A stretch of DNA of 12,805 bases from Magnetococcales bacterium. Lineage in GTDB: Bacteria; Pseudomonadota; Magnetococcia; Magnetococcales; JADFWU01. This document shows, one piece after another, positions 1 through 12,672 of the stretch. A program made the position numbers and the translations under genes. Numbering within the stretch: position 1 is the first letter of the stretch; each line of letters opens with the position of its first letter. The stretch spans positions 1 through 12,805 of the forward strand of contig JADFWU010000069.1 in the NCBI GenBank assembly GCA_015234045.1. The letters run 5' to 3'. The notes under the pieces are model-generated. The model made no database searches. It was not told the origin of the DNA and saw only the letters and a program-made list of their open reading frames with translations.

Positions 1-780
1 TTATCCCACGTTGCGGTGACGGTATCGCCCACCTTGTACGCACCGCTGGTGCCGGATGCGCCGCTGATAGAGATACTGCCATCAGTCAGAGTCGGGCTGA
101 CAGCATCGACAGTGGCGTTGGTGGTATCCGCTGTGGTTGTCGTGTTGCCCGCGTTATCAGTGGCGGTGACACCAATATTGAGAGTGGTGTTGTCAATGGA
201 GCCTTCGACAACGGTATACGTTGCAGTCCAAGTGCCGGCGCTTTCACTGGCACTGACGGCTGATCCGCCGCCAAAGGCGCTGAAGTCAACGGAAACCGTG
301 CTGATGGTATCGCTGTTGTTGTCGCCGCCGTCTGTATTATCCCACGTTGCGGTGACGGTATCGCCCACCTTATAGGCACCGCTGGTGCCGGATGCGCCGC
401 TGATGGAGATGTTGCCGTCTGTCAAAGTAGGAGCGACAGCATCGACAGTGGCATTGCTGGTATCCGCTGTTGTCGTGGAATTGCTCGTATCATGGTTGGC
501 TGTGACACTTACATTGGCACCGGTTGAATCAACCGAACCGGAAACGATGGTGTAGGTTGCGGTCCATGTGCCGGAACTCTCAGTGGCACTGACGGCTGAT
601 CCACCGCCAAAGGCGCTGTAGTCCACACTTACCGAAGAAATTGAATCGCTGTTGTTATCGCCTGAGCTGGTATTATCCCATGTGGTGGAGACAGTGTCGC
701 CGATCTTGTACGCACCACTTGTACCGGAGGCACCACTGATGGAAACATTACTATCAGAAACAGTTATCGATATGGACTCC
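1..780 (-). repeat. 336-bp in-frame tandem repeats (112 residues per unit), cut by the window edge
   Basis: The same block (plus-strand start 'ttatccca') begins at 1, 337 and 673, exactly 336 bp apart, so each unit is 112 residues and keeps the frame. The copies starting at 1 and 337 are very similar over their visible length; the copy at 673 is more diverged. Each unit encodes 'ISGASGTSGAYKxGDT', 'TWDNTxxGDNNSD', 'FGGGSAVSA' and 'AT(V)DAVxPTLTD'. The array continues past the left edge, so the copy number is unknown. The high similarity points to recent duplication or gene conversion. Confidence 0.9.
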
Positions 781-3700
781 ACTAGGACATTGGTAGTTGC
801 ATCAACGCTGTTGAGCGTCAGGCTTGCGTCATTTCCGGCAGTGTCCCGGATTATGCCGGAATTGAGGCTCAATGCGGAAGGTTGACCGATACCATCGCTA
901 TCCTGATCTCCCGAGACCACAGTGTAGCGGAACACCACTGCGGTTGAGCCGCTGCCGGATTGATATGTCGCGCTTTTGCTGCTGCCACCCAGGTCAAAGC
1001 TTAATGATGGCGTGCTGGTGCTAACCGTAACACTTTCGGAAAAATTGACAGTGAAATCCAAATTTTCATTTGAGCCATAGGTGGCATCACTGGGCGCGGA
1101 GACCGAAGTGATGGTGGGTGCGGTGGTGTCTACCAGGATGCTGGTGGTTGTGCCGATACTGTTCAGCGTGGTGTCGGCACTGTTCCCTGCCGAGTCTGTG
1201 AAGGTGCTACCGTTCAAAGTAAGGCCGGTTGGTTGACCGATACCGTCCGAATCCGTGTCGCCTGCTGCCACAGTATATTTGTAAGCGACTGACGTGTAGG
1301 AACCATTGACACCCGCCAGAGAGGCTTGCTTGGTCGAACCTCCTAAATCGAAACTGATATAGGCAGTGCCGCCACTCTCATTAATCGAAAGCGACTCGTC
1401 AAAATCGAGCCAAAACCACAACGAATCACCTGCCATGTAACTGCCATCGGAGGGCACCCGCACTTCTGTTATCGATGGTCCCTCGGCATCTACCAATACG
1501 CTACTGGTACTGGCCACACTGTTGAGGGTGGTATCTATATCGTTACCGGCAGAGTCTTTCAACGTACCTGAGTTAAGCGTGATCGTTGTTGGTGTCCCAA
1601 TACCATCACTGTCAAGATCGCCATCTGTGACCGTATAGCTGAATACCAAGGCTGTGGTTGTTGATCCACTGGCATAACTGGCTGATTTTGTGCTGCCACC
1701 CAGATCGAAGCTGATGGTTGGTGTGCCGCTGTTGGTGTCAACGGTAATCGCTTCGCTGAAGTTAACCGTGAAGGAGAGTGTGTCATTTTCTGTGTAGGTA
1801 TCATCAGAAGGCACAGATACTGAGTTGACAACGGGTGTGATATTGGTTGTCACGCTGGATGCGGTGCTGGTGTTGCCATCACCGTCAGCGATGGTGAATG
1901 CCATGGTGCGTTCACCGGTGTCTGGGGTGCTGCCGCCTGCATGGGTATATTGAATCGCTTGTAGAAGGGCACTTGCAGCTGTGGGAGTAGCGTTGGTGCC
2001 GCTGAAAGTGATAACCAGATCATTACCGCTGGTGCCATCACTGGTGATGGTGCCGATGGTGTTGCCGGAGTAGCTCACCGTGTTGCTTGAGACAGTGATG
2101 CTACCTTCATTTGTGACAGAGAGTGTGTCTTCCGAACTTACGCCACCGGATGTAATGGATATGGTAAGGTTTCCACCATCGAAATCGGTTGAATCGGTAT
2201 CCGTAATGGTGGCATCCAAGCCGCTGTCCAGACTTACTGAAGAACCACCAGCAGAGGCTGTAATGCTATCACCGGCTAACTTGCTGAAAGTAGGGGTAGG
2301 TCCAGAATAAGTCAGGGTTACATCATTACCATCGCCGCCAACATAGGAGATGGAAAAAGTGTAGTTGTCAAAGGTGTAGTTATCGCCTTCAGCAAGGCCG
2401 TCAAATGTACCGGTAACGGCATCAGAGCCATCGTTGTTGATGAGCGTAAACACATCATCAGCAGACGGTGTGAAGCTGTTGATCAGTGTGCCGGATAGTG
2501 TGGCATCGGTGATATCTACCGTACCTGTCACAACCAGTTGGTCATAACCGGTACCAGCCGTGGTGCTGCCAAGCTCAACGGATAGTGTTGCGCCACTGAC
2601 AAAGGTGAGATTGCCTGTAGCCAGATCACCAGCAGTGCTATTGCCTGGTGCGATACTGGCGCCACTGGAGACTGAGACTGCGCCAGCCAGTGAACCATCA
2701 CCAGCCAATGTGCCAGCAGAAACAGTGGTTGTACCGGAAAACGTATTGGTGCCATCCAGGGTCAGTGTAGCGCCGCCATCAATGGATAGGTTATTGCTGC
2801 CGGATATGACACTGGAGATTGTGGTGTCGGCAAAGGAAGAGATATAGGCATCACCATTGAGTACGATACTGTTATCAATAGACGTGGCACTCGAAAACAT
2901 GAGCACAGCATTTGTTGCCAATGTCACAGACCCGCTGCCTAAATTGGAGTCTGAGTTGATATTGATTGTACCAGCGGACAGAACTGTATCGACGTAGGTG
3001 TTCGTGCCACTCAGGGTTAGAATAGAACTGGTATGACCGCTCTTGGTCAGGTCATAGTTACCAGAGATAACACCGGATAAGACGACATTGGTCTCGGTGC
3101 TGATCGTGGCATCACCAGCAAGGGCAATGGCGTTATCAATAGTGCTGACGTTGTCGGTGAATTGCAGGGTAGAGCCCGCTGCCAACGTCACGTTACCAGA
3201 GCCTAAACCATTATCTTCTGAAATGCTCATCGTCCCAGCGGATACGGTGGTTGTGCCGGTGCGTGTGCTGGTTCCAGTCAGTGCCAAACTACCATCACCG
3301 GCTTTACTGAGTGCGCCACTGTCACTGATCGTGCCATAGAGTGTGGCGGTTTTGCCGGAGGATACATCAATGGTGCCGCCAGAGGATTGAATGGCGATGG
3401 CATTGCCTATTGTCAAATCATCAGTAAATTCCAGCGTGCCATTGCTCAGATTGATTGTTTCACTGCTGAATGCATTACCGTCAGAAATTGAGAACGTGCC
3501 GGCATAGATCCAAGTCGATGATGTATAGGACGTGCTGTTACTGATATTGGTCAAAATCAGGCGACCATCACCTCTTTTGTTCAGTTGAGTGGCGCTTGTT
3601 AGCAATCCTGAAAAGGTTACATCAACGGAAGCGTCAACAGAGATATCGGCCGCCCCAGAAAGTGTGACAGCGTTATCAATCGTTGTTGCGCCACTGATCT

Positions 3701-6143
3701 GAAAGGTTGTGTCGCCAGCGAGCGTTACGGTACCACTACCAAGATTTTCATCGGCGGAGACACTCAGAGTACCAGATGAAAGAGATAGACCGCCATCGAA
3801 GGTGTTGGTACCAGAGAGTGTCAGCGTACCGGTACCGCTTTTTATGACACCATAGGTATTGCTGCCATCATCAATCACGCTGGCAATAGTATCGCTATCA
3901 CCGCTACCGGAGGTTATTGTGATATTGCCTCCCAAGGTGATGGTGCTGCCGGTAATAGTTAAACCGGAGCCGTTGCTGAGATCAAGGGTCGCGCCGGATT
4001 CGAGTGTGATGTCGGAGCCAAGAGTGATGGTGTCGCTACCGCTGAAGGTGCTGCTATCCAATACAAGCGACTGTGTGCCATCCTGGCTGGAGGCGATGGA
4101 GGCTGCCTCACGTAATGTGACGGTGTTGCGATCACTGTCAGATGTGTCGCCGGTGTCATTTATGTAGATCGTATCGGTGGAAATGGTAACCGTGGCAGTG
4201 TCCGTACGGCTAGTATCATCGGTAATTGTGAATTCAATGGTGGCATCACCGGCTGGCGTATCGTTACGGTAGGTGATGTGTTGAAGAACATCGCTTACCA
4301 ACGCAGTTGTGGCAACGTTGCTGCCGCTGAAAGTGATGGTCAGTACGCCATTGGAATTGGTGAATGATCCGAAGGTGTTGCTGGAACCATCCTTTAGATC
4401 ACTGCCGCTTACGGTGAATGATGCGCTGCTGGTGTCAAAATCGAATGTGTCTGAAGTAACAGCCGTACCAGAACGTTGAACAGTCAGGGTTGCACTACTG
4501 TAATCACCACTCCCGCTGTTGAGTGCATCAAGTTCTGTGTCGCTGACCGTGCCGTCACTGTCTACAGTGACTGAAGAGCCAACACCCGCCCAGCTTGCTG
4601 ATCCACCGTCCAGATTTGAAAAGCTTGGCGCGGTGGCGGACGAGCTCGTGATGGTGATGGAAATAGTTGCCGTGTCATCAGCCGTGCTATCTGAATCCTC
4701 ATCATCTACCGAAACTTCAAGTGTTACGGTCGCAGCACTCAGGCTGGCACCCGATGCGACTGTTACTTCACCTGTGGATGAGTTGATAACAAACAGACTC
4801 TGTCCTGTGCCACCAGTTATGGAAAAGATCAAGCCATCGGTATCACCAGTGTTGGCTACAGTACCGACCGAGGTGCCGGCTGCTGTACTATCGGTGATAG
4901 AGGTAAATGTTTCATCGCCGATATTGGGATCGACATCGGCAATCGTCACATTGATGGTAATAGAATCAGTATCGCCTTCGCTATCCTCGACTGTAACTTG
5001 AAAACTATCAGCGCCGAAAGTGCTTGCGGTGGGTTCATAAGTTGCTGTGTCAGGGGTTGCGCCCGAAGTCCCTATGGAACCGGTACTGGTGGCTGTACTG
5101 GAAATAACCACGCTGCCATTATTTGGTGCTGAACTCTGGGACCAGGTCAATGTCTGGTTAGAGTCAGTATCCGTTGTGTCCAACAAGCTTGTAAAAGACG
5201 TTGCACCATCGCCCTCATTTACGGTGAGTGATGCAGAGGTTCCCTCGTTGAAGGCTGGGCTGGAATTTTCACCGCCGGTGAGCATGAGTTCTTCAAAATC
5301 AATATGAGTGGCTGCGTACTGCTCATAATCCTCAAGAGATTGCTGATCAAAAACTTGCCAGACATCCGCGTCAATGTCGCCATATTCGGCTTCCAGAGAC
5401 CAGTCTCCTCCTAAATTGGCATCACCGGTAGTATCGGTGGAGGCTGCGATATCTGTACCTGTCAGCTCTGCAACGGCTTCAACGAAGCGTTGACCTTCAC
5501 CATGTGCTACCTGGCAGGCGTAGAGTAGAATATCTCCCTCAGCGGATACGGCATCACCCCAGGCGACCAGATCATCATGATGTGTGTCCAGTGTCTCCAG
5601 TGTGAGAGTGTCACTGCCCAGTATCACGGCGCCTTCGCCGCCATGGGAAACAATATGCAGTGAATCCAGATTGGAATATTGGGAAAGAATGGTTGTGATC
5701 TGTTCAACTGCGCTACGGCTATCATCAAGCAGGTAGGCATCTGCATTGGGTAAAATTGCGTCTAGAAGACGCTGTTCACCTTGGACCTGGCTGTCAATGA
5801 TCACCACTTCTGTGGCGTTGCCGGTCTCTGCCGCAATTGTGGGTACTGGCAGGCCGCCAAGATCGCTGCTCTCAATGGTATCTAAAGCCTGTCTCAGGTT
5901 CTCGACAAATACCAAGTCTTGACTGTCGGTAACGGCGCTGTCAGAGCTGTCATGGATTGTCTCCAGGACTGTCTGGTCAGCCTCATGGCCAATACCATCA
6001 ACACCAGAGATAATCCCCGCAGCATCGAACATGATTCTTGGCTCAAGCGCACGCAGGTCGGCGGGGCTGTCTGATCGTTTGATCAGCGCTTCATGAGGTG
6101 TTTTCTGAGCTTTGGCACGCATGAACCACAACAGTGTTGACAT
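1..6143 (-). CDS. Giant LEPR/DUF4347 surface protein (adhesin-like), N-terminal part, runs off left edge
   Basis: The minus frame is open without a stop from an ATG at 6143 to the window edge (about 2047 codons); I checked the register near 4180, 2580, 1290 and 29. Residues 33-42 read LEPRIMFDAA, the motif near the N-terminus of many very large exported proteobacterial proteins. Residues ~113-268 form a DUF4347-type domain with SHGGEG (166-171) and LLYAC (206-210). Then come cadherin-like domains, a beta-helix of autotransporter-associated repeats, Ig-like repeats and 336-bp tandem repeats, nearly all rich in Ser, Thr, Gly, Asp and Asn and almost free of Cys. This composition suits an exported, calcium-binding adhesin, probably type I secreted, but the C-terminal secretion signal lies outside the window. 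The start is uncertain: the ATG lacks a good ribosome site, and the frame stays open upstream to a GTG at 6236, directly after an in-frame TAG. Function as an adhesin is inferred from architecture. Confidence 0.9.
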   Translation of the reverse strand, partial: MSTLLWFMRAKAQKTPHEALIKRSDSPADLRALEPRIMFDAAGIISGVDGIGHEADQTVLETIHDSSDSAVTDSQDLVFVENLRQALDTIESSDLGGLPVPTIAAETGNATEVVIIDSQVQGEQRLLDAILPNADAYLLDDSRSAVEQITTILSQYSNLDSLHIVSHGGEGAVILGSDTLTLETLDTHHDDLVAWGDAVSAEGDILLYACQVAHGEGQRFVEAVAELTGTDIAASTDTTGDANLGGDWSLEAEYGDIDADVWQVFDQQSLEDYEQYAATHIDFEELMLTGGENSSPAFNEGTSASLTVNEGDGATSFTSLLDTTDTDSNQTLTWSQSSAPNNGSVVISSTATSTGSIGTSGATPDTATYEPTASTFGADSFQVTVEDSEGDTDSITINVTIADVDPNIGDETFTSITDSTAAGTSVGTVANTGDTDGLIFSITGGTGQSLFVINSSTGEVTVASGASLSAATVTLEVSVDDEDSDSTADDTATISITITSSSATAPSFSNLDGGSASWAGVGSSVTVDSDGTVSDTELDALNSGSGDYSSATLTVQRSGTAVTSDTFDFDTSSASFTVSGSDLKDGSSNTFGSFTNSNGVLTITFSGSNVATTALVSDVLQHITYRNDTPAGDATIEFTITDDTSRTDTATVTISTDTIYINDTGDTSDSDRNTVTLREAASIASSQDGTQSLVLDSSTFSGSDTITLGSDITLESGATLDLSNGSGLTITGSTITLGGNITITSGSGDSDTIASVIDDGSNTYGVIKSGTGTLTLSGTNTFDGGLSLSSGTLSVSADENLGSGTVTLAGDTTFQISGATTIDNAVTLSGAADISVDASVDVTFSGLLTSATQLNKRGDGRLILTNISNSTSYTSSTWIYAGTFSISDGNAFSSETINLSNGTLEFTDDLTIGNAIAIQSSGGTIDVSSGKTATLYGTISDSGALSKAGDGSLALTGTSTRTGTTTVSAGTMSISEDNGLGSGNVTLAAGSTLQFTDNVSTIDNAIALAGDATISTETNVVLSGVISGNYDLTKSGHTSSILTLSGTNTYVDTVLSAGTININSDSNLGSGSVTLATNAVLMFSSATSIDNSIVLNGDAYISSFADTTISSVISGSNNLSIDGGATLTLDGTNTFSGTTTVSAGTLAGDGSLAGAVSVSSGASIAPGNSTAGDLATGNLTFVSGATLSVELGSTTAGTGYDQLVVTGTVDITDATLSGTLINSFTPSADDVFTLINNDGSDAVTGTFDGLAEGDNYTFDNYTFSISYVGGDGNDVTLTYSGPTPTFSKLAGDSITASAGGSSVSLDSGLDATITDTDSTDFDGGNLTISITSGGVSSEDTLSVTNEGSITVSSNTVSYSGNTIGTITSDGTSGNDLVITFSGTNATPTAASALLQAIQYTHAGGSTPDTGERTMAFTIADGDGNTSTASSVTTNITPVVNSVSVPSDDTYTENDTLSFTVNFSEAITVDTNSGTPTISFDLGGSTKSASYASGSTTTALVFSYTVTDGDLDSDGIGTPTTITLNSGTLKDSAGNDIDTTLNSVASTSSVLVDAEGPSITEVRVPSDGSYMAGDSLWFWLDFDESLSINESGGTAYISFDLGGSTKQASLAGVNGSYTSVAYKYTVAAGDTDSDGIGQPTGLTLNGSTFTDSAGNSADTTLNSIGTTTSILVDTTAPTITSVSAPSDATYGSNENLDFTVNFSESVTVSTSTPSLSFDLGGSSKSATYQSGSGSTAVVFRYTVVSGDQDSDGIGQPSALSLNSGIIRDTAGNDASLTLNSVDATTNVLVESISITVSDSNVSISGASGTSGAYKIGDTVSTTWDNTSSGDNNSDSISSVSVDYSAFGGGSAVSATESSGTWTATYTIVSGSVDSTGANVSVTANHDTSNSTTTADTSNATVDAVAPTLTDGNISISGASGTSGAYKVGDTVTATWDNTDGGDNNSDTISTVSVDFSAFGGGSAVSASESAGTWTATYTVVEGSIDNTTLNIGVTATDNAGNTTTTADTTNATVDAVSPTLTDGSISISGASGTSGAYKVGDTVTATWD
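786..1845 (-). repeat. Three bacterial Ig-like repeats of ~355-360 bp (within CDS)
   Basis: Three successive units each begin with a V-x-x-P-S-D motif (near plus 1803, 1446 and 1086). They continue with a 'FxVxFxE' strand, then 'SFDLGGSxKxAxY', then 'YTVxxGDxDSDGIGxP', then 'L(N/K)xSxxxDSAGN', and end in 'LVD'. They are about 119 residues each, diverged at DNA level, and have the layout of tandem Ig-like/SwmB-type domains common in large calcium-binding adhesins. They probably act as stalk modules that place the protein away from the cell surface. Confidence 0.75.
2660..3870 (-). repeat. Beta-helix block of about five PATR-type repeats (within CDS)
   Basis: At protein level this block repeats a pattern like GxGTLTLSGTNTFxGxTTVSAGTLS, followed by NLGSGTVTLA and an 'IDNAI.L.G' strand. 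I see copies near plus positions 3860-3730, 3590-3470, 3330-3200, 3060-2930 and 2800-2680, so about five degenerate units. The pattern matches the passenger-associated transport repeat known from autotransporter passengers. Units are diverged at DNA level, unlike the array at the left edge. Just upstream in the protein (plus ~4060-4190) is an INDTGDTSDSDRNTVTLREA stretch, typical of the start of a pectate-lyase-like beta-helix (CSLREA-like). This suggests the block folds as one right-handed beta-helix. Confidence 0.75.
5340..5807 (-). other. DUF4347 domain within the giant protein
   Basis: This part encodes residues ~113-268 of the giant protein. It opens with a hydrophobic strand (VVIID), then a strand ending HIVSHGGEG (residues 163-171), and later a strand ending DILLYAC (204-210) followed by QVAHGEG. 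It closes with LGGDWSLE, typical of the end of DUF4347. DUF4347 is a recurrent N-terminal module of giant repeat proteins and has no established activity that I know of. A strand followed by His-Gly and a later strand followed by Ala-Cys is the arrangement of the catalytic dyad in clan CD (caspase/gingipain-like) peptidases. Whether this copy is catalytic is inference only. Confidence 0.8.
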
Positions 6144-6787
6144 CAAGCTGTTCTTGCCAATCAATTTCTCATACTCCGTCTCTGGGCCGCTGACCGATCG
6201 TGCCAAAGCCGGGTTGCTCCCAGCTCTGGCCCACACCTAAATATATCTAAATTTTGCAGGCATCAAAAGGCAAAAACTCTATGAAATTTTATGCTGTTAA
6301 CTTAATAGTAACTGTTTTGCTGTTAATTATTTCCTGGATAATAATTGTGTCTCAGGCAGTGAAAGTGTTCAATGCAAATTAAGTGGTGATTGAAGGATTA
6401 CTGTTCTAATCTGACATGGTCTGTCAATGGTGTTAATATGACGGGTTGTCACACATAAAGATATGAATAATTTTAACAAAAAACATCTCGATTTATATCA
6501 AAAACATAATGCTGTATATTGCATATAAAAAGTGAATCAATATTTAATTTAAGAAATATAAAAAGTTCTATAAATTTGATCAGTTTAAATTTAGGCATCC
6601 AAAGCAGACTATAAGCATAGAGTCATTCCAATTTTCACACCAGCATTGCCCATCTTATGAAAAGCTGATTTACTGACAGCTTGATAACTGACGGACAGAC
6701 ACTGTAATCCTGGACGATGTCAGCATCGAGTGGCAGAATTTGGATACGTTAAATCATTTTTAAACAGGTAGTTGGTAGGGATTTGAC
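6144..6787. promoter_or_regulatory. Divergent AT-rich intergenic region (643 bp)
   Basis: This stretch separates the minus-strand giant protein from the plus-strand methyltransferase operon, so it must hold the promoters of both. From about 6240 to 6620 it is much more AT-rich than the flanking genes. I see a perfect inverted repeat TGACA-N5-TGTCA at 6412-6426, an AT-only inverted repeat at 6325-6331/6340-6346, and a small hydrophobic reading frame at 6281-6382. A weak sigma-70-like pair (TTGATA at 6681, TAATCC at 6705, 18-bp spacer) precedes the operon, but its -10 box is poor. I see no RNA gene, riboswitch or clear terminator. Confidence 0.5.
6281..6382 (+). CDS. Possible 33-residue single-pass membrane peptide
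   Basis: An ATG at 6281 opens a 33-codon frame ending in TAA at 6380-6382. The peptide begins MKFYAVN, has a continuous hydrophobic stretch of about 18-20 residues rich in Ile, Leu and Val and containing SW (residues ~8-26), and ends in a polar tail (QAVKVFNAN). A weak purine run, AAAAGG, lies about 11 nt before the ATG, further than ideal. It would be a single transmembrane segment with a short exposed C-terminus, resembling known bacterial small membrane proteins in form only. AT-rich DNA produces hydrophobic codons by chance, so this may be accidental. It lies in the divergent spacer and shares no obvious link with its neighbours. Confidence 0.3.
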   Translation: MKFYAVNLIVTVLLLIISWIIIVSQAVKVFNAN

Positions 6788-7441
6788 ATGGAAATCGGAA
6801 CAAGCAAAATCGCGAAAGTTGCAGGGCTCAACATCCACTATACAGACGCGTTGGGCACAGGCGGTTGGGATTTTGGACTGGATTTCCTGGATCTGTTTGC
6901 CCAAAAAGGTTGGAAAGCTGGTCGTGCTTTCGAGATGTGCTGTGGTCCAGGATATATCGGGTTTGCACTGCTCGCCCATAATTTATGTGACACGCTCTGC
7001 TTGGCTGATATCAACCCTGTGGCTGTTGAGGTCTGCAAGAGAACAATCGCTGAAAATGGACTGAGTGATCGTGTGAGCGTCTATCTTTCTGATGGTTTGG
7101 CTGATATCCCATCACATGAAAAATGGGACGTGGTGGTAGGAAATCCACCGCAATACGCGCAATCCGGTGCCCGTGAGAAAAGAATCGGCAAAGCCATTAA
7201 GTTTGAGCTGCATGAACGGATTTGGCTGGATGAGGATTGGCATATCCATCGGGATCTTTACTCAGGTGTTGGGAAGCATCTTATGAAAGGGGCTAATATC
7301 GCTATTATGGAAGCGCGTCTTGGCAGCGACGAGAATGATTTTATAGAACTCATTCGTGATGGCGGTCTGGAATATGTTGCGCGTTTGCCATGCAAGGGCG
7401 ACCGTCGGTTCTACTATGTTCATTCCCGATTGCCGGAATAA
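6788..7441 (+). CDS. Small class I SAM-dependent methyltransferase (NPPQY motif)
   Basis: The gene encodes 217 residues from an ATG at 6788, with AGGGA at 6777-6781 at proper spacing. A Rossmann-type methyltransferase fold is visible: motif I FEMCCGPGYIG (residues 48-58) for S-adenosylmethionine, an acidic residue at the end of strand 2 in LADIN (D74), a GLSDRV helix-strand turn (91-96), a DG pair at 102-103, and NPPQY at 119-123. NPP-(Y) at this point is the active-site motif of PrmC/RsmC-like 'MTS' enzymes, which methylate amide or exocyclic nitrogens, so N-methylation is a reasonable guess. The substrate is unknown. There is no RNA-binding or other accessory domain. It is the first gene of an apparent operon (56 nt before the radical SAM gene), which suggests a small-molecule or pathway role rather than ribosome modification. 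Confidence 0.85.
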   Translation: MEIGTSKIAKVAGLNIHYTDALGTGGWDFGLDFLDLFAQKGWKAGRAFEMCCGPGYIGFALLAHNLCDTLCLADINPVAVEVCKRTIAENGLSDRVSVYLSDGLADIPSHEKWDVVVGNPPQYAQSGAREKRIGKAIKFELHERIWLDEDWHIHRDLYSGVGKHLMKGANIAIMEARLGSDENDFIELIRDGGLEYVARLPCKGDRRFYYVHSRLPE

Positions 7442-7497
7442 ACATGTCGGTTTGCAGTGTTGGACATACCATAACAGGGCCAGGGGCAAGGTGACGC

Positions 7498-8622
7498 ATG
7501 AAAGGGCACTACGGAAGACAGATTGCACGCGCGATACGCTCTTTCATCACGGAAAAGCCGGATCTTGCTCTGAGATATAAACATGCGAAATCGGTAGTGA
7601 GATCCTTCCGCAATCCCGCATTTTATGAAATCGCTACCCGCTGTAATTTGACCTGTGAAGGGTGCTACTATTTTGGTAATGAAAATGCACCGCCCACAGA
7701 TGGCAACCGTCCGTTGGAAGAGTGGCAACGCTTTTTTGCCAAGGAAGCCGCACGAGGGGTCACCATGGCCTATTTTGTCGGGGCTGAACCAGCCCTGAAA
7801 CAGGAGCGGCTTCTGGCTGCGGCCCCCTATTTTCCTTATGGCAATATTGGCACCAATGGCACCGTTCGCATCGACCCTGCTGTCCCATACCGCATTGGTG
7901 TCTCAATCTGGGCTGGTGAAGAGTCCTCCGATATTGAACTGAGAGGTGGTAGTGCATTTCGTAAAGCGCTGCATAACTATCGTGGTGATCCCCGTGCCAT
8001 CATGCTCTTTACCGTGACCCAATGGACCATTAATCAAGTCGAAACAGTGGCTGAGATGTGCCAGGATCACGGTGTTCAACTCACCTTCAACCTCTATTCA
8101 CCAACACATACGTTCCAGGCCAAATTGGCCCAAGGTGTAGATAATGATCGTGACCATTTCCGCCTCAGTCGGACTGGTCATGCGCCAATACTGGATGATG
8201 CGGCTTTGGTTGAGGTTCATCGCACTTTGGCAGAGACACTGGACCGTTTTCCAGAGACTGTCGTTTATGCACACCCTTTTAATGACTTTATCTGTACGTC
8301 ACACCCACGCTATGAACTCGACCCTGAAACCGGCGTGGCCATTGACTGTGGTTCGCGCATTGTGCCGCCCATGCGCTATTACACAACGGACCTGACCGCA
8401 CAGGCCGTTAAATGTTGCACGCCCGAGGTGGATTGCGCCCACTGTCGGTTGTATTCGGGCGGATGGTCTTCAAAGTTTGTTCCTGGCATATCCGATGTTA
8501 AAGATGATGTCTCTTTTGAACGGTGGCTTGATATGATGGAGACTTTGGGACGCATTTTTCTCTATCCCAGGGATCGCCATGCGGAACGCTTTGACAACGC
8601 GATGACCAAGCAGATGGACTGA
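7498..8622 (+). CDS. Radical SAM enzyme with cysteine-rich C-terminus
   Basis: The product is 374 residues from an ATG at 7498, with AAGGTG just upstream and an in-frame TGA at 7492-7494 that excludes an earlier start. CNLTCEGC (C49, C53, C56) is the canonical CxxxCxxC that binds the [4Fe-4S] cluster reducing S-adenosylmethionine. GAEP at 95-98 stands where most family members have GGEP. GTNG (118-121) and later strands complete the partial TIM barrel. Five further cysteines lie in the last quarter: C284, the CC pair 306-307, and CAHC at 313-316. They could bind a second cluster as in SPASM/twitch-type enzymes, but the spacing does not match a SPASM motif I can name. The reaction is unknown; methylthiolation, epimerisation or C-C/C-S bond formation are all possible. 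It sits between the methyltransferase and the P450, 14 nt from the latter, so the three are probably one transcript. Confidence 0.92.
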   Translation: MKGHYGRQIARAIRSFITEKPDLALRYKHAKSVVRSFRNPAFYEIATRCNLTCEGCYYFGNENAPPTDGNRPLEEWQRFFAKEAARGVTMAYFVGAEPALKQERLLAAAPYFPYGNIGTNGTVRIDPAVPYRIGVSIWAGEESSDIELRGGSAFRKALHNYRGDPRAIMLFTVTQWTINQVETVAEMCQDHGVQLTFNLYSPTHTFQAKLAQGVDNDRDHFRLSRTGHAPILDDAALVEVHRTLAETLDRFPETVVYAHPFNDFICTSHPRYELDPETGVAIDCGSRIVPPMRYYTTDLTAQAVKCCTPEVDCAHCRLYSGGWSSKFVPGISDVKDDVSFERWLDMMETLGRIFLYPRDRHAERFDNAMTKQMD

Positions 8623-8636
8623 AAATAAAAGGTGAT

Positions 8637-9929
8637 ATGATGACCATCAGCCAGAACCGTTTTTTGCCGCCAGTACTCTCTTTGCCTGATCTGGATGCAC
8701 TTGAGTGGAAAAGCATGGCAGAGATGATCCGCTTTCGGGAAAACAGCCGACCAAAAGAGTTGCTTGATGAACAGGTCATCGTCAAACAAATGGGCAAGCG
8801 CCAAATCGTATTGATTGCCGACCCAGTCGCCGCTGAAGAGATACTCTTCCGGCGTGCAGATCAGTTTCCCAAAGCCGCCATCCAGAAAAAATTGGGGCAT
8901 GCCGCCTTTGGGCCGGGGTTAAGCGGAACCGTTGGCGCTCAAAACCAGCGTCAGCGCCATGCGTTTAAGCCGCTTATGGTTGGAGAGCAGGTGCGTATCA
9001 TGGCTGAGGTGGCCAAAGAGGCTGCTGACGCAGCCGTGTCGCGTTATCTCAAGGCAGGTCGTATTGATCTCGGCTACGAGATGGCAGAACTGGCTATGCA
9101 GATCATCTGGGCCACGTTGCTCGGACCTGGCCGGTATGAGGGGCGAGACCCGATCGTTGCGGAAGTTATTACAGAACTCTATGCACATCCGAAAGGCGAT
9201 TTTATTTCCGCCACAGGGATTGTCCGGCGGCTTGCTGACCATTTTGAGGAATCAGGGCGCTGGAAACGCCTTGCAGACGATAATCCGTTAGCTGCTATCA
9301 CCAATCCAGACGGTTGGACAGGGAAGCATCCCATGAGCCAAGAAGAACTACGGGCTAATGCGGTGGTCATGGCGGCTTCAGGACATGTTACCACCGGATT
9401 GACGCTGGCTTGGTCAGCTTGGCTGCTTGGGCTTTTTCCGGACGATCAGAGGCGAGTTGTCCAAGAGGTTGATAACGATGAACATCAAGAGTCTGGCTCT
9501 TTTCTTCGTCAAGTGGTCAATGAGACCTTAAGATTGTTTCCGCCCGGTGCAGAAACCATGCGTGATGCCCTGTCTACAATGCAGGTGGCTGACCAGACCA
9601 TCAATCCCGGAGATCTTGTCATTGTCTCTTTCTATGCGCTGCACCGTCATCACCGTCTCTGGCAAAATCCCGATGCGTTCCAGCCCCAGCGGTTTGCCGC
9701 TGAGTCGCCTGAACCTGTGATGCCAACGGCATTTCTCCCCTTCAGTGGTGGTCCAGGCGGTTGTCTGGGAGAGCGTTTGGCTTGGGCTGAAATGCTGGCA
9801 GTGCTTGGCACTCTATTTCGACACACCCGCGTTGAGACAGATCCTGTAGAGGCTGACAAGGTTGGCCTCTGTCCGGGCACATGTATCTATCCAGAAGGCG
9901 CGTTGCGCGCTCAACTGCACCCACGCTGA
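8637..9929 (+). CDS. Cytochrome P450 monooxygenase
   Basis: The product is 430 residues (normal bacterial length) with no membrane anchor, so it is soluble. The heme-ligand loop FSGGPGGCLG (369-378) matches FxxGxxxCxG with C376 as thiolate. ETLR (296-299) is the K-helix ExxR, and RQRHAF (105-110) is the helix-C heme-propionate region. The I-helix reads AASGHVTTG (246-254): the threonine pair is kept, but the acidic residue before it, usual for oxygen protonation, is Val. Two ATGs adjoin at 8637 and 8640; the second lies at better distance from AAGG (8629-8632). No ferredoxin or reductase is fused or adjacent, so electrons come from elsewhere. It probably hydroxylates or oxidises the pathway intermediate, perhaps creating the hydroxyl that the neighbouring carbamoyltransferase would use (inference). 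Confidence 0.95.
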   Translation: MMTISQNRFLPPVLSLPDLDALEWKSMAEMIRFRENSRPKELLDEQVIVKQMGKRQIVLIADPVAAEEILFRRADQFPKAAIQKKLGHAAFGPGLSGTVGAQNQRQRHAFKPLMVGEQVRIMAEVAKEAADAAVSRYLKAGRIDLGYEMAELAMQIIWATLLGPGRYEGRDPIVAEVITELYAHPKGDFISATGIVRRLADHFEESGRWKRLADDNPLAAITNPDGWTGKHPMSQEELRANAVVMAASGHVTTGLTLAWSAWLLGLFPDDQRRVVQEVDNDEHQESGSFLRQVVNETLRLFPPGAETMRDALSTMQVADQTINPGDLVIVSFYALHRHHRLWQNPDAFQPQRFAAESPEPVMPTAFLPFSGGPGGCLGERLAWAEMLAVLGTLFRHTRVETDPVEADKVGLCPGTCIYPEGALRAQLHPR

Positions 9930-9934
9930 ACGCA

Positions 9935-11905
9935 TCAGTCAAGCGGACCGGATCCGCTGTGTTCGACAAAGTGCCACAGGTCGATAAATTGAAGATCAGC
10001 TCTATTCTGAGTTTTACGTTTTATCCGGGCAATGAGCCGCTGTAGCTTGTGTGCATCGCCCGCGTTGCTCGGATCATAGCGATGCAATCGAGGATTGTGA
10101 TAGTAGAACATGAGATCGTATCGTGAAAGCTGGTGCGGGTTCAGTTTTTTTTCCATGGAAACAGGGTCGTTTACTGCGGGCGGGTCAATGTTTACGCCCG
10201 TTCTTTGCAATGGGTGTGTTTCGTTGTATGCGGCGCAATTCTTCAGTTCAATTCGACAGTTGTTGATGTAGACAATCCTGATCTCTTTTCTGAGGGCAAA
10301 GTTCAGCGCTTCAGGAATCGTGTTGATGATCGGTTCGCCACGATCGTTGAGGGACGTGTTGCCGAGAATTGGCACGCCTGTACGTTGGTAAAATGCGGAT
10401 AACAGGTGGTGGAGTGCTGGATTATCATCCATGCTCAACGTTTGAACTCGGGCTGTTCCATCCAGATGACAAATGGCGGCAACCGTCTCCTTTTTTTCGG
10501 CGCTTATTTTGAACGTGTGCAGCATGTAGGGAGAGTTGTAGATATCTTCAAACCATTCATGCATCCGCTCTTGTAGAACGATTGGTGCAACCGGTCGCCA
10601 CCATTGACGTTGTTTGATCGCATTCAATGCGTCTCTTGCGGCGAGATTTCTGGGATCAGCCAGCAGGCTACGATTCCCCAACGCCCGAGGCCCCATTTCT
10701 GCGCGTCCTTGGAACCAGATAATAGGCGCTTGTAATAGATCATCCACTACCTGGTCGTAGTGTAAGGTTTGCACGCTTTCAACAAAATCAGAGAACTGCG
10801 CATCAGCCAAAACCGTATCCAGAGCATCATCGGCACTGCCATGATATGGCGTGCGAAAATGAAAATCGAACTGTTTCAGTCGCGTATGAAACTGATATAG
10901 CCCCATGCCTAATGACATGCCTGAGTCATTGAGACATGGCGGTGCCATAAATCCCTTGAACTGATATTTTCGCATCAAGTGGGCATTTGCCGGGCAGTTA
11001 AGTGCATATCCGCCTGACAAGGCAAGATAGGTGTCGCGTGGATCGAGATGATGTTTCTTTAATATCCCATCAATGGTTTGCTCCATGATCATCAGAGACG
11101 TTTTATGAATGATTTTGACCACCATGCTGATCTGATTGTCTTCAACAGAAAATCGGCTGTCAAACGCATTCATTAACGTGCCTGCGTCACAAGCGGAAAT
11201 TGACTCAATGCGCTGGGCAATGGCTTCAAACCATTCACCAAGATCAATAATATCCTTGGTATTGGTAACGGATAACGGATATTCCATTTCAATCCAAGCG
11301 TTACTTTGGGACGCGCTTCCCAAAGCCATCAATGACCCCTCATTCAACTGATAGCGTTGCCGCATCAAGGCCCAGAGCACCCCTGGGGATGAGATTGGAA
11401 ACAGTGCTAACTGGCCTCGATTGGAATAGCCGCCGACATAATAGTTCTTCTGCCTGACTTCCGTATCAATGACATTATCCGGGGCACCATCCACAGCCAG
11501 TGCGATAATTTTTTCACGATGAAATATGTCTGTATCCAGAAGAATACTGGAAAAAAGATGCATCAAACCATGGTGGGGTAATTGGGGGTGTTGCGTCTGC
11601 CATTCTGTATCAGAAATGGTAGATAGGCCGGGCGTGCCCCACACCGCAACCATATCATCCAGTGAAAGTCCGACCTCTTCCAACAGCGTGTTGATAACCT
11701 GCTGGGCATGAACAGTGCTGAAAAATGAGTTGCTGTGATTTTTATGTCCGGATACTCTTTCCAGCTCCCAATAGTGAACCAGTTCAACATGATTGGCCTC
11801 TTTTCGCCAGAGGGCCATATTCTGGTCATGTCTCAAGCCAATATTCTTGAGATAGGCGAGGTCTCCGATATGAGAGTAGACCGATAGGTAATGACCGTTT
11901 TTCAC
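9935..11905 (-). CDS. O-carbamoyltransferase, NodU/CmcH/TobZ family
   Basis: The product is 656 residues from a GTG at 11905, with AAAGGT at proper spacing upstream. Family members transfer a carbamoyl group from carbamoyl phosphate through carbamoyl-AMP to a hydroxyl or sugar of antibiotics and Nod factors. The Kae1-like N-terminal domain has HHGLMH (111-116; HxxxH metal-ligand pair H112/H116), AVDGAPDN (137-144), LSGGYALNC (296-304) and NDSGMSLG (326-333). The C-terminal domain has WFQGRAEMGPRALGNRS (397-413), LADPR, QRQWWRPVAPIVL (432-444), DGTARVQT (482-489) and GNTSLNDRGEPI (515-526). All main landmarks are present, so it should be active. After residue ~560 there is an extension of about 95 residues, charged and aromatic-rich, that is longer than I expect for the family. 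It is convergent with the P450 gene and follows the TPR gene by 36 nt. The acceptor is unknown. Confidence 0.95.
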   Translation of the reverse strand: MKNGHYLSVYSHIGDLAYLKNIGLRHDQNMALWRKEANHVELVHYWELERVSGHKNHSNSFFSTVHAQQVINTLLEEVGLSLDDMVAVWGTPGLSTISDTEWQTQHPQLPHHGLMHLFSSILLDTDIFHREKIIALAVDGAPDNVIDTEVRQKNYYVGGYSNRGQLALFPISSPGVLWALMRQRYQLNEGSLMALGSASQSNAWIEMEYPLSVTNTKDIIDLGEWFEAIAQRIESISACDAGTLMNAFDSRFSVEDNQISMVVKIIHKTSLMIMEQTIDGILKKHHLDPRDTYLALSGGYALNCPANAHLMRKYQFKGFMAPPCLNDSGMSLGMGLYQFHTRLKQFDFHFRTPYHGSADDALDTVLADAQFSDFVESVQTLHYDQVVDDLLQAPIIWFQGRAEMGPRALGNRSLLADPRNLAARDALNAIKQRQWWRPVAPIVLQERMHEWFEDIYNSPYMLHTFKISAEKKETVAAICHLDGTARVQTLSMDDNPALHHLLSAFYQRTGVPILGNTSLNDRGEPIINTIPEALNFALRKEIRIVYINNCRIELKNCAAYNETHPLQRTGVNIDPPAVNDPVSMEKKLNPHQLSRYDLMFYYHNPRLHRYDPSNAGDAHKLQRLIARIKRKTQNRADLQFIDLWHFVEHSGSGPLD

Positions 11906-11941: not shown

Positions 11942-12283
11942 TTACGACTGTTGGAGATTCGTGGATAAACTTCTCCAGATGGGACCAAAGCTTATATTTT
12001 CGGGACTGCCACACAGTTGTTGGGCAAAATCTTCCAGTACAACGGAAAACCACCGGTCAATAAAATCCTCTTCACTTTCGCCATCTGCCGGTTCAGGAAG
12101 AGTAAATAATTGGACAACAGATCGTTTATCCTGCCAGACGGCTTTGCATGAAATTGTTGGAATGGAATGCTTATACGCAAGTCGAGGAATGATGGGAGAG
12201 ACCCGGATATGTCCGTTGAGAAAAGGGCGTTCAAGTGCATGTGTGCTCTCCTGGTCATATCCACATTTTCCTGACCATGACAC
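11942..12283 (-). pseudogene. Out-of-frame continuation of the TPR gene; resembles acyltransferase C-terminal end
   Basis: This frame (possible GTG at 12283, stop at 11942) encodes 113 residues and lies -1 relative to the TPR frame. A YDQES...ALERPFLNGHIRVSP...RLAYKHSIPTISCKAV stretch recalls the part of LpxL/LABLAT acyltransferases where a DQ is followed by a PFF-G-x-x-x-x-xP-x-x-x-x-LA-x-x-x-x-x-P pattern. A later acidic helix, EEDFIDRWFSVVLEDFAQQL, would match the family's C-terminal helix. The catalytic HxxxxD half is absent, so this would not be an enzyme on its own. Either a single-base change split one TPR-containing gene of about 243 residues, or a deletion joined a TPR gene to the end of an acyltransferase gene. 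The likeness is by eye and moderate. Confidence 0.4.
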
Positions 12284-12672
12284 AGTTGAATGCTGTTGAC
12301 TCTTTCCTCTTTATCAAGAATTTTCAGGATGTTGACATAGCGGGTAAAAATATCAGGGTGTTTTGGCGTTTCCTGAAACCATTTTTCAACGACATTGAGC
12401 GCTTCAGTATACGCTTTCTGGTGAATCAAAATATCAAAATAGAGTGTTTTGACCTGAATATTGGAGGACCACTGTTCCATGGCTTTCTTAGTTAATCTCA
12501 GCGCCTCATCCGCTCTTCCGTATTTGTACGTGAATTTGGCCATTTCAAGCGCGGCAAGTATCCGTAACAGCTCTGCTTCGGCCTTTTTCAATTTTCCAGA
12601 ACGTTCAAAAAACAGCGCGACACCGAGTAGTGTGTCAGGATCTTCTTTTTGCTCTGTATGAATCGAAGTCAT
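11992..12672 (-). CDS. TPR-repeat protein; 3' part probably out of frame
   Basis: The open frame has 226 codons from an ATG at 12672, with AAGAGA upstream. Residues ~14-125 are helical TPR-like repeats: LLGVALFFERSGKLKKAEAELL, YKYGRADEALRLTKKAM, LIHQKAYTEALNVVEKWF and HPDIFTRYVNILKIL show the small/large residue pattern of paired helices. From about residue 135 the sequence loses this character and reads like a shadow frame, while the overlapping minus frame 12283-11942 looks like real protein. I therefore think the true reading changes frame by -1 between about 12290 and 12240. One candidate is the four-base T run (plus) at 12266-12269, read as AAAA. TPR domains mediate protein contacts; the partner is unknown. 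The gene lies just upstream of, and codirectional with, the carbamoyltransferase, and was probably cotranscribed with it. Confidence 0.6.
   Translation of the reverse strand: MTSIHTEQKEDPDTLLGVALFFERSGKLKKAEAELLRILAALEMAKFTYKYGRADEALRLTKKAMEQWSSNIQVKTLYFDILIHQKAYTEALNVVEKWFQETPKHPDIFTRYVNILKILDKEERVNSIQLCHGQENVDMTRRAHMHLNALFSTDISGSLPSFLDLRISIPFQQFHAKPSGRINDLLSNYLLFLNRQMAKVKRILLTGGFPLYWKILPNNCVAVPKI

Follow-up and report, generated by a model that had tools for sequence, protein, structure and literature searches.

What is made by a methyltransferase (MT), a radical SAM protein (rSAM), a cytochrome P450 and a carbamoyltransferase (CT) that are encoded together in a Magnetococcales bacterium, at a locus with no visible polyketide synthase (PKS) or nonribosomal peptide synthetase (NRPS)? 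The genes lie on contig JADFWU010000069.1, whose full 12,805 bp form the window analyzed here (G000:C83; C numbers denote contigs, and G and L numbers genomes and loci). On balance, we favor reading the locus as a tailoring cassette that places an N-methylcarbamate on an oxidized scaffold. This reading draws on the identity of the MT, on the pairing of MT and CT families across phyla, and on a second, selected copy of the MT-rSAM-P450 trio.

The source is a draft genome of 3.65 Mb (93% complete), and genes past the contig ends are not visible. The original prediction, made from this DNA alone, described a three-gene run on the plus strand meeting a CT gene tail to tail. Open reading frames (ORFs), intergenic gaps (MT-rSAM 56 bp, rSAM-P450 14 bp, and 5 bp between the convergent ends of P450 and CT) and family matches all confirm this layout. 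The trio is one transcription unit. A further gene, decayed and overlooked by the original prediction, lies beside the CT. The features are as follows:

6788-7441, plus strand: MT, 217 aa, of the Asc-Orf2-like carbamoyl N-methyltransferase family (METHYLTRANSFERASE)
7498-8622, plus strand: rSAM, 374 aa, with C-terminal cysteines that may form a SPASM/twitch-like set
8637-9929, plus strand: P450, 430 aa (PF00067)
9935-11905, minus strand: CT, 656 aa, of the NodU/TobZ/GdmN class of O-carbamoyltransferases
11966-12672, minus strand: decayed gene for a TPR/LpxL-like acyltransferase, frameshifted and with its catalytic core gone, of which ORFs 11992-12672 and 11942-12283 are remnants

In Pfam and NCBIfam, the MT matches MTS-type methyltransferases (7e-13), the P450 matches p450 (2e-42), and the CT matches Carbam_trans_C (5e-58).

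The methyltransferase resembles a carbamoyl N-methyltransferase

Comparisons of sequence and of a structural model indicate that the MT is not a generic methyltransferase. In a phmmer search of the Protein Data Bank (PDB), it matched Asc-Orf2 (9l4q) at E = 2.7e-44, with the next PDB sequence at 9.6e-6. Foldseek/VIA placed the same structure first (37% identity, Z 31.6, root mean square deviation of 1.7 Å over 212 residues) when queried with an AlphaFold2 (AF2) model of the MT, which was built with 40 relatives in the alignment and reached a predicted local distance difference test score (pLDDT) of 90.8. The next structure was PrmC (Z 20.9). Conserved motifs of the MT are CCGPGYIGF, NPPQ and D-W-H-I-H-R. 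Across an alignment of the MT, Asc-Orf2 and the homologs from C107 and G073, the elements GG..FG, C.GP.[FY]IGF, NPP and DW.IHR are invariant.

PrmC and HemK methylate an amide nitrogen. The NPP motif and the closeness to these enzymes thus fit methylation of a carbamoyl nitrogen. The MT most likely methylates the carbamoyl nitrogen itself and not the scaffold, judging from its sequence and model. This refines the original prediction, in which the MT simply acted with the other enzymes on one molecule; given the Asc-Orf2 match, the carbamoyl group replaces the scaffold as its likely target.

Could the MT instead be the missing scaffold synthase, acting as a SAM lyase like the azetidine-2-carboxylate synthases AzeJ and VioH? 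The fold is the same and the size similar, and VioH works with a radical SAM enzyme (PMC11794875). However, the AzeJ signatures FY, PFNxxGN and RxxYYxxC (PMC11794875) are absent, with NPPQYAQ and RDLYSGVG present instead, and neither AzeJ nor VioH was among the PDB sequence matches at E ≤ 0.01, where Asc-Orf2 scored 2.7e-44. We rejected this identity on the missing signature motifs and consider it highly improbable. The crocagin CgnI/CgnL pair was also set aside as a parallel, because CgnL methylates a peptide N-terminus.

The carbamoyltransferase appears complete

The closest solved structures to the CT are 7xb6 (5.9e-38), NovN, TobZ and GdmN. Its predicted iron ligands, H112, H116, D139 and D327, are all intact in an alignment with 14 other CTs; those of GdmN are H133, H137, D156 and D333 (PMC9633730). 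The YrdC-type motifs GPRALGxRS and K-R-xx-[FW]RPxAP are likewise intact (PF16861, 5e-58). The N-terminal half is divergent, and Carbam_trans_N matches only residues 292-333, scoring 23.4 bits (cut-off 24) here and 25.8 bits when the genome was searched. The CT is also below the NodU equivalog cut-off of NF041651 (143.8 versus 1000 bits). By its sequence, the CT appears to be a complete class III O-carbamoyltransferase of the TobZ/GdmN type.

The trio is duplicated and under selection

A second copy of the trio, with the MT, rSAM and P450 genes in identical order, lies on the 6945-bp contig C107 of this genome; amino acid identities to the window copies are 77, 72 and 71%, respectively. Ratios of nonsynonymous to synonymous substitution (dN/dS, NG86 method) between the copies are 0.06, 0.13 and 0.09; these are rough, as dS is saturated. 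The trio is under purifying selection. Thus, duplicated with its order kept and selected for, it is more than a chance arrangement.

Downstream of the C107 trio, on the same strand, follow a second P450 (375 aa) and then an intact TPR protein of 654 aa, whose C-terminal domain is an LpxL-like acyltransferase (PF03279; at 22.1 bits, slightly below the cut-off). The second P450 (L018, 2479-3606, minus strand) has the heme cysteine loop FGLGNHRCPG, and no ExxR is recognizable at the usual place; it is possibly non-catalytic or unusual, as judged from these motifs.

DNA similarity between C107 and the window stops at the MT start and at the P450 end, with one further stretch in common: the acyltransferase gene resembles the decayed gene beside the CT at 11966-12642. 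Searched against the window with tblastn, the intact 654-aa protein matches in pieces, namely residues 18-102, 294-404 (frame -2) and 557-654 (frame -1, 74% identity), and residues 405-556 are missing. What lies upstream of the CT is therefore the remains of an acyltransferase gene like the one downstream of the C107 trio, and this links the minus-strand unit with the trio.

Methyltransferases and carbamoyltransferases are paired across phyla

Scanning the MT alignment against 84,980 species yielded 50 loci. The most frequent neighbor family was CT, found at 13 of the 50 (L059, L060, L061, L064, L069, L075, L076, L079, L086, L087, L092, L096 and L105) and directly adjacent at 11, in tandem, divergent or convergent orientation. 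Hosts include bacteria of the candidate phyla radiation (CPR; Yanofskybacteria, Magasanikbacteria and Parcubacteria), the DPANN archaea Woesearchaeota and Micrarchaeota, Bradyrhizobium, other Hyphomicrobiales, Myxococcaceae and Actinomycetes. Among the 39 genome-searched loci, 10 had a nearby CT versus 0.38 expected by chance from the per-genome CT counts (P = 1.1e-12). Note that some loci are closely related (L060 with L105; L075 with L076 and L086), which brings the number of independent pairings closer to ten.

In the CT tree, the CTs at these loci fail to group as a single clade, and in the MT tree CT-linked members fall on both sides of the window MT and of Asc-Orf2. One MT family has thus been paired repeatedly with different CTs, as expected of a 'carbamoylate, then N-methylate' module. 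A CT is present somewhere in 38 of the 39 genomes with an MT. CTs also occur in 44 of the 48 genomes of the host class and in 48 of 152 Pseudomonadota genomes outside it. Genome-level co-occurrence is partly confounded by taxonomy, and we therefore rely on local adjacency.

Apparent MT-CT gene fusions in L059 and L061 were rejected as out-of-frame ORF artifacts (the genes are separate, overlapping or adjacent), and L066 was rejected as a CT-linked locus for a frame artifact. A DUF6002-type protein recurs near the MT in four actinomycete loci (L067, L072, L080 and L093; the Pfam match was tested in L080). In an Omnitrophota genome, an NPPW-variant MT is directly followed by a radical SAM protein of another kind, which has a helix-hairpin-helix domain (L095, 9995-12056).

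At several loci, the neighbors of MT-CT pairs include NDP-sugar epimerases, DegT aminotransferases, O-antigen ligase (Wzy_C) and nucleotidyltransferases, and those of MTs without a CT include PMT_2 glycosyltransferases. It is possible that MT-CT pairs are a widespread N-methylcarbamate sugar module. Such neighborhoods also raise an alternative for the window itself, in which CT and MT act on a glycan or lipid of the cell surface and not on a diffusible natural product: they would add an N-methylcarbamate to the sugar or lipid, and the rSAM, the P450 and the LpxL-like acyltransferase would modify the lipid part. The acyltransferase domain on C107 and the frequency of CTs in the host class agree with this. 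However, no glycosyltransferase or nucleotide-sugar gene is found among the ORFs of the window and C107, and relatives of the rSAM have NRPS, acyl carrier protein (ACP), lasso-peptide or fatty-acid-type genes around them rather than genes for glycans. We regard a surface glycan or lipid acceptor as somewhat unlikely here.

The radical SAM protein and the P450

The rSAM is below the Pfam cut-off, and its CxxxCxxC motif (C49/C53/C56) is invariant in relatives. C-terminal cysteines are C266, C284, C306/C307, C313 and C316, among which C307, C313 and C316 are invariant in seven relatives. Matches to radical SAM and SPASM families are weak, with no named family above its cut-off. An AF2 model from two sequences was uninformative (pLDDT 37). 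The host class is covered by 48 genomes, all of one order; in the 47 besides this one, we found only weak superfamily-level matches to the rSAM and the P450 and no real counterpart of either. The rSAM alone as a query against the genome contigs gave no match.

More informative are the neighborhoods of the relatives. A relative with 36% identity lies on a Methylomagnum plasmid between ACP/TauD genes and an NRPS. Others, at about 26% identity, occur in Alteromonas and Burkholderia, with a PaaA-like oxygenase and MaoC or a thioesterase, and in Tistrella. A deltaproteobacterium with a sister MT (G398) encodes a distant rSAM relative on a separate contig, beside fatty-acid-type genes. By these neighborhoods and the lasso-type locus described below, the rSAM family is one that keeps to natural-product or acyl-chain genes. 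The family (L107-L111, L122 and L123), which has neither an NCBIfam nor a Pfam name, is marked by the conserved C-terminal cysteines.

The closest relative with known neighbors (53% identity; G304, locus L122) lies in an operon-like run at 598-10835 that encodes a lasso cyclase, an NTP_transf_5 protein, an ABC transporter, a B2 protein, a P450, a DltB-type MBOAT protein, an AlgX-like SGNH protein and the rSAM. Its set of rSAM, P450 and O-acyltransferase echoes the rSAM, P450 and acyltransferase of C107. In contrast to the window, it has a lasso cyclase, a B2 protein and an acyltransferase of the MBOAT/DltB type, lacks both MT and CT, and its P450 shares just 25% identity. L122, an unusual lasso-type cluster, may also contain a short precursor ORF at 300-454.

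The window P450 has the heme loop FSGGPGGCLG (Cys376) and an ExxR motif (E296-T-L-R299). Its nearest NCBIfam model is ApyO (1.2e-33, far below the model cut-off), a P450 of ribosomally synthesized and post-translationally modified peptides (RiPPs). With L122, this match favors a reading in which the rSAM and the P450 tailor a ribosomal precursor whose gene lies elsewhere, comparable to lasso- or aminopyruvatide-like clusters. However, no conserved short ORF is present, the sequence upstream of the MT being dissimilar between the two copies, and this genome has no B2-type (PF13471) protein. Neither a recognition element nor a peptidase is encoded in the window or on C107. RiPP tailoring is, in our view, quite improbable.

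At the left contig end, positions 1-6236 (minus strand) encode a very large DUF4347/PATR/cadherin-like adhesin with near-identical 336-bp Ig-type repeats, which probably broke the assembly there.

A proposed route to an N-methylcarbamate

We propose that the scaffold is modified by the rSAM and by the P450, of which the latter probably forms or uncovers a hydroxyl. The YrdC-like domain of the CT would convert carbamoyl phosphate and ATP to carbamoyl-AMP, and the iron site of its Kae1-like domain would transfer the carbamoyl group to the hydroxyl; both steps are established for the class, and the residues are present here. As its family and gene pairing suggest, the MT would then methylate the carbamoyl nitrogen. 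In the C107 branch, which adds a further P450 and the LpxL-like acyltransferase, the product may carry an acyl chain.

Gene content, catalytic residues, duplication, selection, family placement and MT-CT coupling are shown by the data. We infer that all of these enzymes act on one molecule, and likewise the order of the steps, the nature of the scaffold and the P450 reaction; the P450 may make the very hydroxyl that is carbamoylated, as the original prediction suggested. A shared pathway, also part of that prediction, is likely, since the trio is duplicated and selected and the MT and CT families are coupled across phyla. Nothing supports the further suggestion that the scaffold is a primary metabolite.

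Several points weigh against this route. The CT is convergent with the trio and outside its operon, and C107 has no CT; the genome encodes two, in the window and on C40. This is our main doubt, although the acyltransferase relic next to the CT counts on the other side. Neighborhood conservation, which the original prediction had offered as a check, is seen for MT-CT pairs and not for the quartet: the complete four-gene set occurs in no other genome examined, including 39 MT-bearing whole genomes and 398 Pseudomonadota genomes. No close rSAM relative lies beside the MT in the 39 MT-bearing genomes, and none of the 13 MT-CT pairs has this rSAM. At the loop on the acceptor side, both MT copies carry NPPQ, versus NPPH in Asc-Orf2 and 32 of 40 relatives, and by this residue the MT acceptor may differ; we take NPPH to be a trend in the family and do not define Asc-Orf2-type MTs by it. 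The activity of Asc-Orf2 is itself taken only from the title of its PDB entry ('carbamoyl N-methyltransferase Asc-Orf2 complexed with SAH'). Finally, the I-helix reads GHVTT in both P450 paralogs (window 8637-9929; L018 3603-4892) and has no acidic residue of the acid-alcohol pair [AG]GxD/ETT, so that plain hydroxylation is plausible, not assured.

Some of these points would be explained if the CT were an unrelated neighbor. The CT and the decayed acyltransferase gene would then form their own minus-strand unit, and the trio would make a product without a carbamate, its NPPQ-type MT having switched acceptor. The contig ends right after the acyltransferase remnant, where the context is cut off, which leaves room for such a reading. 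However, the decayed gene beside the CT is homologous to the gene that follows the trio on C107, the MT and CT families are strongly coupled elsewhere, and MT-CT pairs of other genomes are also divergent or convergent. An unrelated CT therefore seems to us unlikely, and we retain the N-methylcarbamate cassette as the preferred reading.

What the locus may represent

The enzyme kinds are known; neither their combination nor so wide a spread of MT-CT pairs seems to have been described in the literature searched. As the original prediction supposed, no match to a described pathway was found, in a search that left subscription journals mostly outside and is thus weak evidence of novelty. Literature combining the gene names returned only an unrelated Paraburkholderia expression list with HypF, and defense-system models gave only weak cross-matches. 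We tentatively suggest an undescribed route: rSAM and P450 oxidize an acylated scaffold, to which an N-methylcarbamate is then added. In a wider sense, class III CT and Asc-Orf2-type MT may form a widespread module that acts on the surface glycans of CPR bacteria and DPANN archaea as well. To our knowledge, no N-methylcarbamate groups have been described on surface glycans of either group.

Few studies have addressed carbamoyl N-methylation, a tailoring step that is rarely encountered. Should our reading be true, an anonymous MT family, including CT-adjoining members in reduced CPR and DPANN genomes, turns into an N-methylcarbamate module that is open to testing and could guide the discovery of natural products and surface sugars that carry this group. 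The locus would be a small pathway in which the module is combined with the chemistry of an rSAM and a P450, in a small, poorly studied and otherwise unexplored class of proteobacteria.

Comparison with known systems

Like the class III O-carbamoyltransferases TobZ, NovN, GdmN, VtdB and NodU, the window CT has Kae1-like and YrdC-like domains, the four iron ligands and the YrdC motifs. It differs in its divergent N-terminal half, its score far below the NodU cut-off and its long branch in the tree. GdmN and NovN have a C-terminal extension of about 100 aa, which the CT shares in length only.

NodS methylates a sugar amine, not a carbamoyl group, and its structure (3ofk) is a distant match to the window MT (Foldseek E = 1.9e-9, 15% identity). 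In rhizobial Nod factors, NodS and NodU provide a precedent for a methyltransferase and an O-carbamoyltransferase acting on one molecule (as cited in PMC6022934).

The nearest parallel to the MT is Asc-Orf2, with which it shares 37-40% identity, the fold, and the GG..FG, C.GP.[YF]IGF, NPP and DW.IHR elements. Unlike Asc-Orf2, the window MT has NPPQ for NPPH, is operonic with an rSAM and a P450, and has a proteobacterial host. The ansacarbamitocin (asc) cluster likewise combines carbamoyltransferases (PMC9633730) with a carbamoyl N-methyltransferase, as the PDB title names it. That cluster belongs to a polyketide (ansamycin) pathway, whereas the window, with neither PKS nor NRPS in view, has an rSAM and a P450.

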